This document shows, piece after piece, positions 21,080 to 30,841 of a DNA stretch of 64,000 nucleotides (positions are counted from its first letter, which is position 1; each line of letters begins with the position of its first letter). This DNA is from a virus. The notes under the pieces were generated by a model that saw only the letters and a list, made by a program, of their open reading frames with translations, made no database searches and was not told the origin of the DNA. Made by a program: the position numbers and the translations under genes. The stretch is from positions 1-64,000 of IMG/VR virus record IMGVR_UViG_3300017971_000228. One strand, written 5' to 3'.

Positions 21080-22411
21080 GTGTTACTGGTGTACCCTCAC
21101 GTCCGCCCCTACATGGCGGACAAATGGATTCCCACGTCTCACGTATTTCTAGCCTCATCGCTATTGGCCCTGGGCTACGAACCTATCCTCATAGACGACC
21201 GATTCAGCAGAGAGCGCACATTATCATTATTGGCCCGGCACCTGGATGATGCACTGTTGGTGGGCATCGGGACGGCGACGGGTTCCCAGCTGCGGAACGC
21301 CCAGGACCTGGCCAGGTGGTGCAAGGAGAAGCGACCGGACGTTCCAGTCGTCTTCGGGGGGCCCTTCCCCTCAGCGAAGCCGGACCTGATGCTGGAGAGT
21401 CCCTACGTGGACGCGGTGGTGACGGGGCAGGGAGAGTGGGCGCTGCCGTACCTGTGCGAGTCCTTCCACGAAGGGGTGGTCCGGGGCCAGCGGGTGAACA
21501 TCGACAACCTGCCACCGCTGCCCTATGCGGACAGAGAGTTCATGCGGGTGAAGGACTATCTCAATCCGTACACGGTGGCCCTCAACTTCGCCACGTCGTC
21601 GGGGTGCGTGGGACACTGTGGGTTCTGCTACTGGCATGAGGACTACGGGTATAGTCGATTCTCTGCCGGCAGGGTAGGGCGCAACCTGGAACTGTTGGTG
21701 GACGCCTTCGGGATCGAGAACGTCCAGTTCGATGACGGGACGTTCTTCGTGGGACAGAAGCGGACTATGGAGATCGTGGAGGCCATCGCCGGACTGGGCA
21801 TCCGCTGGCGGGCCAACGGAAGAGTGGACACGCTGGCCAGCTTCCGGGAGGGGGATTGGTGGCGGATTGCGGAGGCAGGTTGCCACCTGATCCACATCGG
21901 GTTGGAGCATGTGTCGGGGCGGATTCTGGCGCTGATGGACAAGCGCATCGACCCGGTAGGCTGTCTACCTATCGTGCGACGGGCAAAGGAAGTGGGGATT
22001 GGGGTGCGGTTCCACCTGCTGCTGGGGAACCCCACGGAGACGGTAGAGGACCTGGAAGCAGTAGGGGAATGGCTGGCGCAGATGCTGGAAGCCTACCCTG
22101 ATCTGGACTACACCTGCAACTGGTTCACGCCGTACCCCGGATGCGCGATGACGGAAATCGCCAAGCGTCATGGCTACCGAGAACCAACGACGCTGGAGGG
22201 GTTCGAGCGGCTGGAGCTGGCAAACTACGTAGCACTACCCGAAGACGACCGCGAGATTATCAAAGAGACGTCGCCCTGGGAAGTGGACTACAGAGTCCCA
22301 TGGTTCACGGATGAGGAAAACGCGGAGTACATGCAGACCTTTCGGCGGGTGATTCCGCAGAGAGGGACGATTGAGACGACGGGAGGAAAGCGAGATGAGA
22401 TCTACGCCTGA
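21080..22411 (+). CDS. B12-binding-type radical SAM enzyme
   Basis: A 443-residue protein. The N-terminal ~140 residues resemble a cobalamin-binding Rossmann domain (LLVYPHVRPY, LLVGIGTATGSQ, VVFGGPFPSAKP). The radical SAM core then shows CVGHCGFC (Cx3Cx2C, near residue 180) for the [4Fe-4S] cluster, and NPTETVEDL. Such enzymes methylate unactivated carbons or rearrange sugars. Start: the GTG at 21080 is poorly placed relative to the strong AAAGGAGG at 21053; an in-frame CTG at 21065 fits that ribosome site better and would give an N-terminus LSEKKVLLVYPH. Confidence 0.88.
   Translation: MLLVYPHVRPYMADKWIPTSHVFLASSLLALGYEPILIDDRFSRERTLSLLARHLDDALLVGIGTATGSQLRNAQDLARWCKEKRPDVPVVFGGPFPSAKPDLMLESPYVDAVVTGQGEWALPYLCESFHEGVVRGQRVNIDNLPPLPYADREFMRVKDYLNPYTVALNFATSSGCVGHCGFCYWHEDYGYSRFSAGRVGRNLELLVDAFGIENVQFDDGTFFVGQKRTMEIVEAIAGLGIRWRANGRVDTLASFREGDWWRIAEAGCHLIHIGLEHVSGRILALMDKRIDPVGCLPIVRRAKEVGIGVRFHLLLGNPTETVEDLEAVGEWLAQMLEAYPDLDYTCNWFTPYPGCAMTEIAKRHGYREPTTLEGFERLELANYVALPEDDREIIKETSPWEVDYRVPWFTDEENAEYMQTFRRVIPQRGTIETTGGKRDEIYA
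21219..21229 (+). repeat. Dispersed motif, variant CATTATCATTA
   Basis: Nine of eleven bases match; it lies in the radical SAM gene, read in the third frame (Leu-Ser-Leu-Leu). Confidence 0.5.
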
Positions 22412-23258: not shown

Positions 23259-24145
23259 ACCCCAACACGCTCTGCCTGTTCCTGGGGCCCTATCGGAACC
23301 TGACATCACTGACGGCAGTGATGCTGTGGCTTCATCCTCAGTGCCAGGTGCTGAACCATGGCTACCGGCTGGTGGGCGGGGAGCGGATGAGATGGTTCCT
23401 GACGGCTGAGGACTCGGAGCGGTTCAACATTTTCATTCGCTTGCTTACTGAGCTATCGACGCAGGTAGTGGACAAAGAAGAGTGCAGCCCACACGTCCTG
23501 CAGGTAGTCCAGGACAACGCAGGGGTAGAGGACGCCTTCGGACGGCTGCATGGCGTTCCACCGGTGGCGATGGTAAAAGACCCGATGAAGTGTCTGGTGT
23601 GGAAGGAAAGCCAGCTGGTGATGAACGAGCTGCTGGCGATAGACATCCAGTGGGATGAACTCTTCGCCCAGAACAGCAAGCTACGGTTCATCATGCCCTT
23701 CCGCAACCCCATGGAATGTGCGGTATCGAACCACCGGCAGCGCAAGTGGATCTTCTTCTTGGGGCTCAACGACAACGACCCCCTACTGATGCTCAGGGCG
23801 GTGCTGGCAGAGTTTGCCTGGTTCGTAGGAATGGAGCAGCGGTACCCGGAACGGTTCTTCCACTTCTACGAAGACCTGACGGCGGAGACACTGACAGAGC
23901 TACAGCAGTTCCTGGGTCTGGACTACCATCAGGAGTGGGTGGATACGGTGTTGGGACTGTGGAAGATCCGCCATCCCTACCTATTCTCATTCGAATTCGT
24001 CCAGTACTATCTGCACATGGTACGCCTGCACTTCGGGGCGTGGCCGGAGGAGGAGAAGCGTCTGGTGGACTATGTAGACGGGGGCAGGGTACAGAAGCTG
24101 AGAGGAAGGGACTGGGATCGGGTGGGGCAATATGCCGACAGATAA
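23255..24145 (+). CDS. Sulfotransferase-like protein 2 (tandem paralogue)
   Basis: A 296-residue protein clearly related to its upstream neighbour: LCLFLGPYRNLTSLTAVML at the start, QVLNHGYRL, KCLVWKESQ, and FIMPFRNPMECAVSNHRQ as the 3'-phosphate element. The pair likely arose by duplication and could modify two positions or acceptors. It overlaps both neighbours, so the island is translated as one unit. Confidence 0.72.
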   Translation: MNPNTLCLFLGPYRNLTSLTAVMLWLHPQCQVLNHGYRLVGGERMRWFLTAEDSERFNIFIRLLTELSTQVVDKEECSPHVLQVVQDNAGVEDAFGRLHGVPPVAMVKDPMKCLVWKESQLVMNELLAIDIQWDELFAQNSKLRFIMPFRNPMECAVSNHRQRKWIFFLGLNDNDPLLMLRAVLAEFAWFVGMEQRYPERFFHFYEDLTAETLTELQQFLGLDYHQEWVDTVLGLWKIRHPYLFSFEFVQYYLHMVRLHFGAWPEEEKRLVDYVDGGRVQKLRGRDWDRVGQYADR

Positions 24146-25262
24146 CGGCAAGACACCCTACAATGTCCTGCTGCTGGTAGTGGACTGCCTGCGCTACGAT
24201 CATCTGCCGCTATTCGAGAGGACGCTGGGGCATCTGGGGACGAAGGTGTGGTTCTCCAATGCCTGGAGCATGGCCCCGATGAGTGACCCGAACTTTGCTA
24301 CGCTGATGACAGGCCAGCATTCAGATACCCACGGGGTACTGACGCAATGCATGGACACGGAGCTGATGACGCTGCAGGAGGCGTTGAGCTGGCGGGGGTA
24401 CAACACGCTGGGGGGTAGTGTGAGGTATTCAGGGGGGCCACCCGAGGGGCTGAGCGGCTTCTACTTCCGCGGCTTCGATGAATGGATATGGCTGAAGTGG
24501 CTTGACTTTGATTCGCTGGCAGTAGCGGAACGGATAGGGGCCTTGGAGCGTCCCTGGTTCGCCATGCTGCGACCGATGGACCTACATGAATCAGCACCGC
24601 AGAAGTACGACTATGATCGCTGCTGCCGCGATCTGGACCAGCGCCTGGATCTTCTACTGGGCATGGTAGTAGAAGAGAATACGGTAGTGGTCCTCACCGC
24701 CGACCATGGCCAAGGGCTGGGAGAACGGGGCATGTGGCACCATCGAGAGGGACTATGGCAGTTTCTATCACACGTGCCGGTCGTGTATGCTCACCCATCC
24801 TTTCATGCCAGGGAATGCGGGGCGCTGTACCAGCACATGGACACCACGGCGACGATTGCCGGGCTGTGCGGAGCGGACTTCGAGACCCAGGGCATCGACT
24901 GGTCACGGTACCTGACGGATACGCTGGTTCCGGACCGCATGCGGGAGTACGTGATTCTGTATTCCATGGGGTCGGAGAAGAGGGCGCACCTGGAGTTCTC
25001 AAAGCTATGGCGATATCGAGCCATCCGAAGCTACTTCTGGTCCTACTATGAGAGTCGCCGGCAGGGGGAAGAGGGGGAGCCGGAGCTGTACTTCACGCTC
25101 ACCGATCCGCTGGAAGAACACAACCTAGCGACTCTCAAGCCGACGGATAAGCTGGCGGCGCAGTGGTCACAGATGCTGAACTGGCCTGAAGATGGGGGCT
25201 ACACAGCGGAGGAAGAGGAAGTGGTTTTGGAGCGATTGAGGGCGATTGGGTACGCAGATTGA
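24132..25262 (+). CDS. Sulfatase/phosphatase superfamily enzyme
   Basis: A 376-residue alkaline-phosphatase-fold protein. VLLLVVDCLRYDHL carries the first metal-binding Asp, MSDPNFATLMTGQHSDTHG is the nucleophile region, and VVLTADHGQGLGERG holds the later Asp-His pair. The usual C/S-x-P-x-R has Ser first and Phe in place of Arg, so formylglycine maturation or a Ser/phosphoglycerol-type mechanism is uncertain. Paired with two sulfotransferases it may edit sulfate or phosphate esters on a glycan. Confidence 0.82.
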   Translation: MPTDNGKTPYNVLLLVVDCLRYDHLPLFERTLGHLGTKVWFSNAWSMAPMSDPNFATLMTGQHSDTHGVLTQCMDTELMTLQEALSWRGYNTLGGSVRYSGGPPEGLSGFYFRGFDEWIWLKWLDFDSLAVAERIGALERPWFAMLRPMDLHESAPQKYDYDRCCRDLDQRLDLLLGMVVEENTVVVLTADHGQGLGERGMWHHREGLWQFLSHVPVVYAHPSFHARECGALYQHMDTTATIAGLCGADFETQGIDWSRYLTDTLVPDRMREYVILYSMGSEKRAHLEFSKLWRYRAIRSYFWSYYESRRQGEEGEPELYFTLTDPLEEHNLATLKPTDKLAAQWSQMLNWPEDGGYTAEEEEVVLERLRAIGYAD

Positions 25263-27344: not shown

Positions 27345-28307
27345 ATGCCCTCACCAACTCTCAAAGATTTGCATGTTAACAGCGTGCTAACGGAGATGTC
27401 CATCGCCTATCGGAACGATGCGTACATCGCAGACCGGGTTTTTCCCTTGGTCAATGTTGACAAACAGTCTGATATCTATGCTCTGTACACCAAGCAAGAC
27501 TGGTTCCGAGACGAGGCGCAGCGGCGTGCTCCGGGTGAAGAGGTGAAGACTAGTGGGTGGAACGTTGACACAACGAACACCTACTACTGCATCAACTACG
27601 CTCTGGGCAAGGACATCCCTGACGAAATCGCCGCCGGCGCAGATGACGTGTTCGACCTGGACCGGGACGCCACCATCTTCGTGACGGACAAGCTGCAGCT
27701 CAGGCGTGAGATCGAGTGGGCGGCAGACTTCTTCACCACGGGCGTGTGGGGAACGGATGCCACCTTCAGTGCCACCACACGGTGGAATGTGTACGCCAGC
27801 TCGGATCCACTGAGCGACGTGCATGACGGCATCGAGACCGTTCTACAGAATACGGGCAAGCGGCCCAACAAGTTCGTCATGGGCTACCAGGTGTTCAATG
27901 AGTTGCTGGACCACCCGGACATCCTGGATCGGATCAAGTACGGGGCGAGTTCCGGCAATCCGGCAGTGACCACGGAGATGGCACTGGCGCAGCTCTTCGG
28001 CGTGGATGAAGTGCTGGTAGCACGGGCCATCAAGACCACGAATATCGAGAAGAACGAATCGCCTACCATGAGCTTCGTGTGGGGGCAGCATGCGCTGCTT
28101 CTGTACGTGGCGCCACGGCCCAGCAGGCTGGAACCCAGTGCGGGCTACACCTTCGTGTGGAACCCGATGGGCGGACGCGGCCCTCAGATTATCAATCAGA
28201 GGCGTGATTCGGCCCGACACTGCGACGTGGTGGAAGCCATTGGGTACTGGGATTCGAAGCGTACCGCACAGGATTGTGGATATTTCTTCTCATCGGTCAC
28301 GGCGTGA
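27345..28307 (+). CDS. Major capsid protein (HK97-like fold)
   Basis: A 320-residue protein. PTLKDLHVNSVLTEMSIAY, YIADRVFPLVNVDKQSD, then RREIEWAADFFTTGVW and KRPNKFVMGYQVFNELLDHPDIL are typical of the capsid group found in many uncultured siphoviruses. A C-terminal VAPRPSRLEPSAGYTFVWNP and IGYWDSKRTAQDCGYFFSSV complete it. The strong AGGAGGATAACC ribosome site suits high expression. There is no long N-terminal delta domain; the separate scaffold-like protein may substitute. Confidence 0.85.
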   Translation: MPSPTLKDLHVNSVLTEMSIAYRNDAYIADRVFPLVNVDKQSDIYALYTKQDWFRDEAQRRAPGEEVKTSGWNVDTTNTYYCINYALGKDIPDEIAAGADDVFDLDRDATIFVTDKLQLRREIEWAADFFTTGVWGTDATFSATTRWNVYASSDPLSDVHDGIETVLQNTGKRPNKFVMGYQVFNELLDHPDILDRIKYGASSGNPAVTTEMALAQLFGVDEVLVARAIKTTNIEKNESPTMSFVWGQHALLLYVAPRPSRLEPSAGYTFVWNPMGGRGPQIINQRRDSARHCDVVEAIGYWDSKRTAQDCGYFFSSVTA

Positions 28308-28324
28308 GTTCTTAACGAATCTTT

Positions 28325-28344
28325 GGATGGTAACATCACCATCC
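28325..28344 (+). promoter_or_regulatory. Stem-loop downstream of the capsid gene
   Basis: GGATGGT and ACCATCC (7 base pairs) around loop AACATC. It opens a run of three hairpins in the 132-base gap between capsid and next gene. No T-run follows, so it is not a simple terminator. Confidence 0.55.
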
Positions 28345-28360
28345 GAGTATTCATCGTACT

Positions 28361-28425
28361 GACCGAAGCGGAGTGCGGTCTGTTTCACTCCGCATGACCG
28401 GGCCTCGGCGGTCTGTCTCCGGGGC
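28361..28425 (+). ncRNA. Tandem hairpin/pseudoknot element upstream of the post-capsid gene
   Basis: Two modules with the same plan. Module A is GACCG (28361-28365), an 8-base-pair stem (GCGGAGTG/CACTCCGC) and loop CGGTCTGTTT. Module B is GACCG (28396-28400), a 7-base-pair stem (GCCTCGG/CCGGGGC) and loop CGGTCTGTCT. Stems differ in sequence but stay paired, while GACCG and the loop are conserved; GACCG can pair with CGGTC in the loop. This looks like a conserved RNA structure, possibly a translational control element. Confidence 0.6.
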
Positions 28426-28439
28426 AGGGATAACAACTC

Positions 28440-29495
28440 ATGAACAAATTCCGACGAACAACGCAACTCAACGGTCCGCTGACCGTTGGCTACAGTGATA
28501 CCGGCTATGACGTGGTGATGTATGGAGCCACGGCAGGCTGCAATGTCACCTGGGATGAGTCGGCGGATGAACTAGATATCAGCGCCACCACGGAAATCCA
28601 GGCGGCGCACAAGCTACAGTTCCGTGATACGGCCATCTTCCTCCAGTCAGGGGCGGATGGGCAGCTCGACATCGACGCCGATGGCAAGATTGATCTGGCT
28701 TCTGCCTCCATCACCATGACGGGTGAAGTCAATATCACCGGATCGCTGAACGTCACCGGGTCGCTGTCCATGACGGCAGCTTCGACCAACCTGAGCGGTG
28801 AACTCAACGTCACTGGGTCGGCGGATCTGTCATCGAGCATGAATGTGTCAGGGTGTGCGACCTTTGAAGATGCCGTTGGGATCACCAAGAACCTCAACGT
28901 AGCGGGGTCTTCCCTCTTCGGAAGCAGCGCCAGCTATAGTAGCTTTGACGCTGACGGCACGCTGACGATGACTGGTACGGCGCGGGTCATCAAGTCTCTG
29001 TGGCTCCAGCCGCGTGATGTTCGAGCCGATGTCAATGGCAACTGGACAGCAGGTTCTAATGCCAACGCGTCTACTTTCGCTTGGCAATACGGAAGCTCTG
29101 GCACGGCGGGATGTGCCCAGATCGGCTTTGCTGTACCGACGGACATGGATACTACGGCAACGGGCTGTGTAGACGTGCTGTGGTCGGCAGGGTGCGTAGC
29201 TGCGGCCAACGCCTCGATGAACATCACCTATCTCTACTATGGCATCGGGGACGGATCGACACCGGGTGGTACGGGCACACTCACAGGGGCGGAGGGATCG
29301 GGTACAGGTGGAGCCAGTGCCTTTGAGTATACGAACGTGACGGACGCACTGGTAGCACCGGCAGCAAGCACGCGGCACATGACGCTTACGCTCTGCTACA
29401 CACCCAACACAGCTCAGTCAAGTGCAGGGTCTACCTTCCAGCTTAACGGGATGGTCGTCAAGTACCTCTCGAACAAGCTCGGAACAGCGACGTAG
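28440..29495 (+). CDS. Putative virion fibre/head-associated protein 1
   Basis: A 351-residue protein. The N-terminus (LNGPLTVGYSDTGYDVVMYGATAGCNVTWDESADELDI) is a short module found in many phage structural proteins. A Thr/Ser/Gly beta-helix-like run (LNVTGSLSMTAASTNLSGELNVTGSADLSS) and a jelly-roll-like C-terminus ending NKLGTAT follow. Related at both ends to the next protein. Probably a head fibre or surface protein. Confidence 0.6.
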   Translation: MNKFRRTTQLNGPLTVGYSDTGYDVVMYGATAGCNVTWDESADELDISATTEIQAAHKLQFRDTAIFLQSGADGQLDIDADGKIDLASASITMTGEVNITGSLNVTGSLSMTAASTNLSGELNVTGSADLSSSMNVSGCATFEDAVGITKNLNVAGSSLFGSSASYSSFDADGTLTMTGTARVIKSLWLQPRDVRADVNGNWTAGSNANASTFAWQYGSSGTAGCAQIGFAVPTDMDTTATGCVDVLWSAGCVAAANASMNITYLYYGIGDGSTPGGTGTLTGAEGSGTGGASAFEYTNVTDALVAPAASTRHMTLTLCYTPNTAQSSAGSTFQLNGMVVKYLSNKLGTAT

Positions 29496-29503
29496 GGGGG
29501 TGA

Positions 29504-30226
29504 ATGATGGAGAAAGATAGACGTCAACGCAACATCCTGGGACCGATGACGGTCGGTATGGATGATTCCGGCCACGACGTGACCTTCTACGGCGCAACGG
29601 CAGGCAGTAAGCTACTGTGGGATGAATCAGCGGACAAGCTGTACGTCCAGGGGATTCTCAATACCACGGGGGCAGTCACACTGGAGGGGGCGGGCAGGGT
29701 CTACAAGGAAAAATGGTTCGGGGCCCGTGAGTTCGATGTCACGGCTTCGGGCGCGACAGCGGGGCAGTATAGCTCTTCCATGCCCACCATCACCATCACC
29801 TCAACGAACTCGAACAATACCTTCGAAGATGTCTACGTCTGGGCACCGACACCTGATGACCTGGACACGACGGCCTGCATGACGGCCTACTGCTGGTGGT
29901 CCTGTGATACGGCAACCGGGGGTGATGCGCACTCTACCAGCCAGTATTCACAGATGGCGCTGCAGTGGGGCCACTACGCCGCTGGAGAGGCGTCACCGGC
30001 GACGACAGCTTCTACGGACGTAGCCAAGTTCATCGCAGCCAGTTCCGGCGCGAACTATATGACCAAGAGCACACTGACTTCCTCAGTCGATCCGCCTTCA
30101 GCGGGGGAGATGATGGGATTCAAGCTCCGAGTTTGGTCTAGTGGAAGTGCGACAACTGGCTCTGACATGCAGGTGCATGGCCTACAGATTCGGTATAGGG
30201 CGAACAAGCTGGGAACAGCGACGTAG
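29504..30226 (+). CDS. Putative virion fibre/head-associated protein 2 (paralogue)
   Basis: A 240-residue shorter relative of the upstream protein. It shares ILGPMTVGMDDSGHDVTFYGATAGSKLLWDESADKLYV and the ending IRYRANKLGTAT but lacks the long beta-helix-like run. Two such proteins side by side could form alternative or mixed surface fibres. Confidence 0.6.
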   Translation: MMEKDRRQRNILGPMTVGMDDSGHDVTFYGATAGSKLLWDESADKLYVQGILNTTGAVTLEGAGRVYKEKWFGAREFDVTASGATAGQYSSSMPTITITSTNSNNTFEDVYVWAPTPDDLDTTACMTAYCWWSCDTATGGDAHSTSQYSQMALQWGHYAAGEASPATTASTDVAKFIAASSGANYMTKSTLTSSVDPPSAGEMMGFKLRVWSSGSATTGSDMQVHGLQIRYRANKLGTAT

Positions 30227-30229
30227 CCT

Positions 30230-30841
30230 ATGCTGGAATACAACCGGATATATCAGGGTGACTTTCAGGATCTTCTCGTAGGGCTGGGTTCGGGCTGGGC
30301 AGACCTCATCTGCACCGGACCCAGCGCCTACGGGCAGGGACAGGAGCATCTGGACCGACTGACGCGGTGGGCACGACGGTTCAGGGAAGCACTCAGGCCA
30401 AAGGGAGTACTGTTTTCGATCTGGCCTGAGCTACGGGTATGGACCTTTGCCCAAGCAGCCCTGGATGCTCGGTACGTTACCATCCAGGTACAGCACAATA
30501 TCTGCCAGGGGCAGCCTCTGGCGTTGGCAGGACAGTGTACCGTCATCGCCACGCCGCAGACGCCTGAAGCTCTGCCGATGTATGATGGGGAACTGGCGAG
30601 CATCACTGCACCCCCCTGGACGTCGGGCTTCCCGGTAGAGCTAGCAGAACGGGCGATAGAGACCTATTGCCCCCCGGAAGGGGTAGTCTTCGATCCGTTC
30701 ATGGGGCTGGCCACCACGGCCATCGCTGCGATACGACTGGGGCGTCGGTGGGTGGGCTGCGAACTGGACGAGAAGCGGATCAAGTCAGCCTACGAACGCA
30801 TCACGCAGGAGACGGGATGGGAGCCAGATGCGGTTCAGTGA
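30230..30841 (+). CDS. Beta-class DNA methyltransferase-like protein 1 with altered motif IV
   Basis: A 203-residue protein with the circular order of beta-class DNA amino-methyltransferases. A catalytic-region stretch comes first (DLICTGPSAYGQ), and the SAM-binding motif I is C-terminal (VVFDPFMGLATTAIAAIRLGRRWVGCELDEKRI). The usual T-S-P-P-Y/D-P-P-Y is T-G-P-S-A here, the same change as in its neighbour. It may modify another base or act non-catalytically. Lying among virion genes is unusual. Confidence 0.75.
   Translation: MLEYNRIYQGDFQDLLVGLGSGWADLICTGPSAYGQGQEHLDRLTRWARRFREALRPKGVLFSIWPELRVWTFAQAALDARYVTIQVQHNICQGQPLALAGQCTVIATPQTPEALPMYDGELASITAPPWTSGFPVELAERAIETYCPPEGVVFDPFMGLATTAIAAIRLGRRWVGCELDEKRIKSAYERITQETGWEPDAVQ

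Follow-up and report, generated by a model that had tools for sequence, protein, structure and literature searches.

The element described here lies in a window of 64,000 nt, the whole stretch of DNA that was analysed, which belongs to a 98,106-nt virus record. On the + strand, the gene for the major capsid protein ends with a stop codon at 28305-28307, and the next gene, at 28440, encodes a product presumed from its position to be a virion surface protein. A Pfam search gave no match for this product, which resembles those of neighbouring late genes; its first ~45 residues are similar to those of the neighbour at 29504 and of genes in a related phage contig (L120), and its N-terminal domain is encoded, in part, by 12 further loci. 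Two tandem modules, A and B, occupy the region between the two genes, and the features are, in order:

27345-28307, + strand: major capsid protein gene, upstream of the modules (PHROG 1005, E 1.3e-85; Phage_cap_E)
28317-28352, + strand: separate hairpin with the core GGATGGT-AACATC-ACCATCC, between the capsid stop codon and module A; absent from L120
28361-28393, + strand: module A, predicted H-type pseudoknot, found by geometry scan and kept at L120 1942-1975
28361-28365 with 28376-28380, + strand: predicted stem 1 of module A, 5 bp, GACCG/CGGTC
28366-28367, + strand: loop 1 of module A, 2 nt
28368-28375 with 28386-28393, + strand: stem 2 of module A, 8 bp
28381-28385, + strand: loop 3 of module A, 5 nt
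28394-28395, + strand: inter-module spacer, 2 nt; the L120 spacer is equally long
28396-28425, + strand: module B, predicted H-type pseudoknot, found by geometry scan and kept at L120 1978-2007
28396-28400 with 28409-28413, + strand: predicted stem 1 of module B, 5 bp, GACCG/CGGTC
28401, + strand: loop 1 of module B, 1 nt
28402-28408 with 28419-28425, + strand: stem 2 of module B, 7 bp with one U-G pair
28414-28418, + strand: loop 3 of module B, 5 nt
28426-28439, + strand: presumed ribosome-binding stretch, with AGGG at 28426-28429 directly 3' of module B as the putative Shine-Dalgarno sequence
28440-29495, + strand: downstream gene with a 351-aa product, presumed to be a virion surface protein

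Module A reads GACCG-AA-GCGGAGTG-CGGTC-TGTTT-CACTCCGC and module B reads GACCG-G-GCCTCGG-CGGTC-TGTCT-CCGGGGC, with a repeat period of 35 nt in the window and 36 nt in L120. Reading of the sequence confirmed to the base the module boundaries given in the original prediction, together with its observations that both modules begin with GACCG, that they share a 10-base loop (9 of 10 bases identical between A and B), and that their second stems pair in spite of unlike letters, the stem of module B including one U-G pair. The element also lies 3' of the capsid gene as had been proposed, whereas the gap to the ATG at 28440 is 14 nt and not 15. In both modules the segments follow one another as GACCG, short loop, stem 2 strand, CGGTC, 5-nt loop and stem 2 partner, and this a-b-a'-b' order is that of an H-type pseudoknot; the two stems and the groove-crossing loops that define the class, along with this order, are present in the letters of both modules.

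The complementarity of GACCG to the CGGTC of each loop had been thought to allow either an H-type pseudoknot within each module or a kissing contact between the modules, and of these the former is favoured, since it accommodates loops of 1-3 and 5 nt and since its rough energy is ~4-7 kcal/mol better than that of the best nested fold (-16.7 to -18.9 versus -12.1 to -13.2 kcal/mol, with the pseudoknot penalty of 9.6 of the Dirks-Pierce model). Kissing between the modules, or a domain swap, is allowed by the letters and appears unlikely, as 0 nt would be left between stem 2 and the loop segment to cross the groove. Stem 1 would form by exact complementarity, with fitting loop lengths and the rough energy estimate in its favour, and both modules probably fold as the predicted H-type pseudoknots. 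The ordinary nested folding energy of the element is unexceptional (z = -0.06), so that the claim does not depend on folding energy, and the evidence consists of geometry, repetition and comparison. Pairing of ATCGGTCA, near the end of the capsid gene (28286-28299), with TGACCGA where module A begins (28360-28373) is a possible alternative to stem 1 in the window; L120 is without this pairing.

The pattern GACCG N7-14 CGGTCTGT occurs twice in the window, against 0.02 matches expected, and none of 100 shuffles of the window reached two; the two matches are also the only ones to this two-part pattern in the whole 98,106-nt record. When the window was scanned for pseudoknots with a 5-bp stem 1, a loop 1 of 1-4 nt, a stem 2 of 7 bp or longer, allowing a single G-U pair, and a loop 3 of 3-8 nt, the matches on the + strand were exactly modules A and B, and one unrelated site was recovered on the - strand. 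Dinucleotide shuffles (n = 500) gave a mean of 0.5 scanner matches per strand and a tandem within 20 nt in none of the 500.

One close relative was found, L120 (IMGVR_UViG_3300009034_000902, 5,022 nt, the same contig as L053), whose capsid protein is 69% identical and in which the same gene pair flanks both modules. The comparison therefore covers two phages, hence four modules. Alignment of the element gave 66 columns, 52 identical and 14 variable, the latter falling in stem 2 (9), loop 1 of module A (3), the spacer (1) and loop 3 of module B (1). Compensatory substitution of both partners is seen at four pairs of stem 2 and a shift to G-U at one, and no pair is lost; the 25 proposed pairs all form in each phage, and slid registers gave no two-sided change. 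When an equal number of substitutions was placed at random in simulation, both stems stayed paired with P ~1.2e-4, and a two-sequence shuffle control, which is a weak one, reached the observed value in 36 of 500 cases. On this covariation, stem 2 very probably pairs in both modules. Stem 1, by comparison, never varies and so gains no support from covariation: GACCG/CGGTC, CGGTCTGT and the TGT that follows are invariant in all four modules, while stem 2 differs both between A and B and between the phages, a division which suggests that these letters are recognised by something. The U-G pair of module B in the window and the G-U pair of module A in L120 would be A-C mismatches on the opposite strand, which points to an RNA of the + strand, the strand of the genes.

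Together, these results establish a conserved RNA element. Selection at the RNA level, which had been argued from the differences between A and B, is supported, mainly because L120 keeps both modules with a compensated stem 2; the argument from A versus B taken alone is weak. The pairing of the stems in relatives had been named as the test of the structure, and L120 retains every stem pair. The alternative named at the same time, a recent duplication of a short hairpin for which no fold was selected, would explain the letters common to A and B; it is very improbable, given that two phages differing by 31% in their capsid proteins each retain a recognisable A-type and a recognisable B-type form and that the changes in stem 2 are compensated. 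The separate hairpin at 28317-28352, missing in L120, lies outside the conserved core.

The element keeps its place more closely towards the downstream gene. From module B to the ATG there are 14 nt in the window and 11 nt in L120, whereas from the capsid stop codon to module A there are 53 and 16 nt, respectively, and this steadier spacing to the downstream start in two phages is suggestive. The ribosome-binding stretch of the window reads AGGGATAACAACTC, and in L120 GAGGAG directly follows module B. This stretch lies outside both modules, so repression cannot be read directly from the sequence. Several other roles were rejected for the region. It is non-coding, as the two phages share no reading frame of common phase across the element and a 1-nt difference in loop 1 of module A puts them out of frame. 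A terminator was rejected since no T-run follows either module and a terminator scan placed no site here. Stimulation of stop-codon readthrough or of frameshifting is unlikely, given the unlike distances to the capsid stop codon and the further in-frame stops in between.

Further members were sought by sequence and by gene neighbourhood. Scans with GACCG..CGGTCTGT patterns in viral and genome contigs covered 283 sequences and returned at least 267 matches, counting repeat copies of the window and L120; among the matches listed there was no third tandem, and a single stem-like match was present in each of eight further loci. A pattern that relaxed stem 1 to R/S/Y matched the L120 contig only, and blastn against phage records gave matches at chance level only. 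The sequence 3' of the capsid gene in 20 capsid relatives besides L120 (29-42% identity) contained the element in none, L132 and L133 offering just 37 and 6 nt downstream and L137, L148 and L150 having been left out. With stem 1 set at 4 bp, a scan of 19 of these relatives produced weak matches in just L129, L130 and L131, and in each case a plain hairpin of greater length overlapped the match. A covariance model built from the two phages, with the pseudoknot left out of the model, recovered only the two source sites at E <0.2 across 30 whole records, three other records giving chance-level scores of 12-14 bits; a second covariance search, of 49 sources, returned the two source sites and one match at E 2.3.

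Other structured sites were seen in further phages. A locus with another capsid type (L277), one of the 12 that encode part of the N-terminal domain, has at 2843-2878 a single pseudoknot-like site, AGGCT..AGCCT, with a 5-bp stem 1 of different letters, an 8-10-bp stem 2 and a 5-nt loop; it lies 6 nt past a stop codon and just upstream of a gene with a related surface-protein domain. Among the 31 loci fetched for this comparison, L289 (the same contig) and L297, L314 and L318 (which end at the capsid gene) were excluded, and no such site was present in the 27 other loci with related capsids; the L277 site is an unconfirmed lead. Plain G-rich hairpins occur between virion genes, 3' of the capsid gene, in the HK97-type phages L289 and L292, suggesting that structured intercistronic RNA is common in phages of this type.

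Among known systems, the element resembles the pseudoknot of T2/T4 gene 32. This pseudoknot has a short loop 1, a likeness to module B. Like the modules, it is an H-type pseudoknot in phage mRNA upstream of a start codon, and PMC3014915 and PMC535899 describe it as an operator of translation located 5' of its gene. The T2 pseudoknot is reported to have helices of 5 and 7 bp, the lengths found in module B, where loop 1 is 1 nt, module A having a stem 2 of 8 bp and a loop 1 of 2 nt (PMC5684407). The gene 32 pseudoknot, as described, is a single copy about 67 nt upstream, whereas here two copies end 14 nt from the ATG (PMC3014915). In gene 32, A+U-rich UUAAA repeats lie between pseudoknot and start, and 28426-28439 is without such repeats; gene 32 encodes a single-stranded DNA-binding protein that binds its own operator, whereas here the gene is a virion gene, the letters are unrelated, and the SSB gene is elsewhere (78787-79113 of the record). 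The element may therefore work like the gene 32 operator by analogy, yet it is not a member. The E. coli S15 (rpsO) operator is single, overlaps the start region and belongs to a ribosomal protein gene, and is in these respects unlike the element. It likewise contains a pseudoknot, according to PMC3014915. STAXI (RF01728) is described as a tandem pseudoknot motif (PMC2864571), but it occurs close to DNA-handling genes and frequently with UUCG tetraloops, features not seen here, and its covariance model found no match at E <=10 in the 98-kb record. Rfam 15 gave no match in the window at the gathering score, and on L120 three weak matches far under the gathering scores. Literature listings on tandem pseudoknots with phage and capsid, and on phage pseudoknot operators, showed no report of this element.

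The reading placed first here, at a little short of an even chance, is that the dyad is a cis-acting translational operator of the 28440 gene, recognised sequence-specifically in the style of gene 32 but in tandem. The late mRNA of a tailed phage would carry, in the gap from the major capsid gene to the virion gene that follows, two pseudoknots sharing stem 1 and loop sequence; a putative ligand, most likely a phage protein, would recognise the invariant GACCG/CGGTCTGT face of each, and the two copies would allow cooperative binding. Stabilised beside the ribosome-binding site, the knot would then lower initiation at the 28440 gene compared with the capsid protein, which is far more abundant. 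That capsid relatives at 29-42% identity do without the element counts against this reading. A passive barrier in the mRNA is unlikely, though less so than the other alternatives: the dyad would block 3'-to-5' exonucleases or mark a processing site, with no specific ligand, and the capsid message would as a result last longer than the remainder of the operon. Such a role would suit a dyad that adjoins the 3' end of the gene whose product is required in the greatest number, as well as its high calculated stability and the plain hairpins found after the capsid gene or between virion genes in other phages (L129, L130, L131; L292). The letters of a barrier, however, should drift in stem 1 and the loop as they do in stem 2; their fixity in four of four modules suggests recognition of letters and not a mere roadblock, and the spacing is better kept to the downstream start than to the capsid stop codon.

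ToxI antitoxins are described as tandem 34-36-nt repeats whose monomers are H-type pseudoknots (PMC5086642), and phage TE is reported to have a pseudo-ToxI escape locus (PMC3475682); the tandem units of about 35 nt seen here, each a predicted H-type pseudoknot, resemble both. By these precedents, the element could be a decoy or antitoxin-like RNA that is released from the abundant late mRNA and neutralises an endoribonuclease toxin of the host. This is improbable: whereas ToxI is reported with 2.8-5.5 repeats upstream of its toxin gene (PMC5086642), the element has just two non-identical copies with an unlike stem 2, it adjoins a start codon, and it matched no Rfam family; a ToxN match was absent from the record, a weak point given that control genomes were equally silent. 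Riboswitch-like control, in which the pseudoknots would sense a small molecule or an ion and regulate the downstream gene, is marginally less probable still. Small H-type pseudoknots with invariant core letters beside a ribosome-binding stretch would fit it, and some riboswitches occur in tandem; tandem glnA RNAs are mentioned in PMC2864571. A virion gene would, however, be an unusual target, and no Rfam family matched the window region at E up to 5.

Should the operator reading hold, a conserved tandem dyad placed where the capsid gene meets its downstream neighbour would extend known control to virion stoichiometry. Because stem 1 and the loop are invariant and stem 2 drifts, the recognition surface lends itself to direct testing. 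It is conceivable, if rather doubtful, that the element represents a new class of phage RNA operator: a pseudoknot dyad in which the recognition face GACCG/CGGTCTGT is fixed and the second stems are free to drift, and to which a phage late protein would bind cooperatively so as to set the capsid-to-surface-protein ratio of a dsDNA phage.

The surrounding operon has further features of its own. A B12-binding radical SAM gene (21080-22411) and a sulfatase-like gene (24132-25262) lie between the head protease/portal and capsid genes, and a virion operon would not usually carry such cargo. Beyond the surface protein genes, a short ORF at 30230-30841 resembles N6/N4 DNA methylases, and a similar-looking ORF occupies the same place in L120 (3447-4103).
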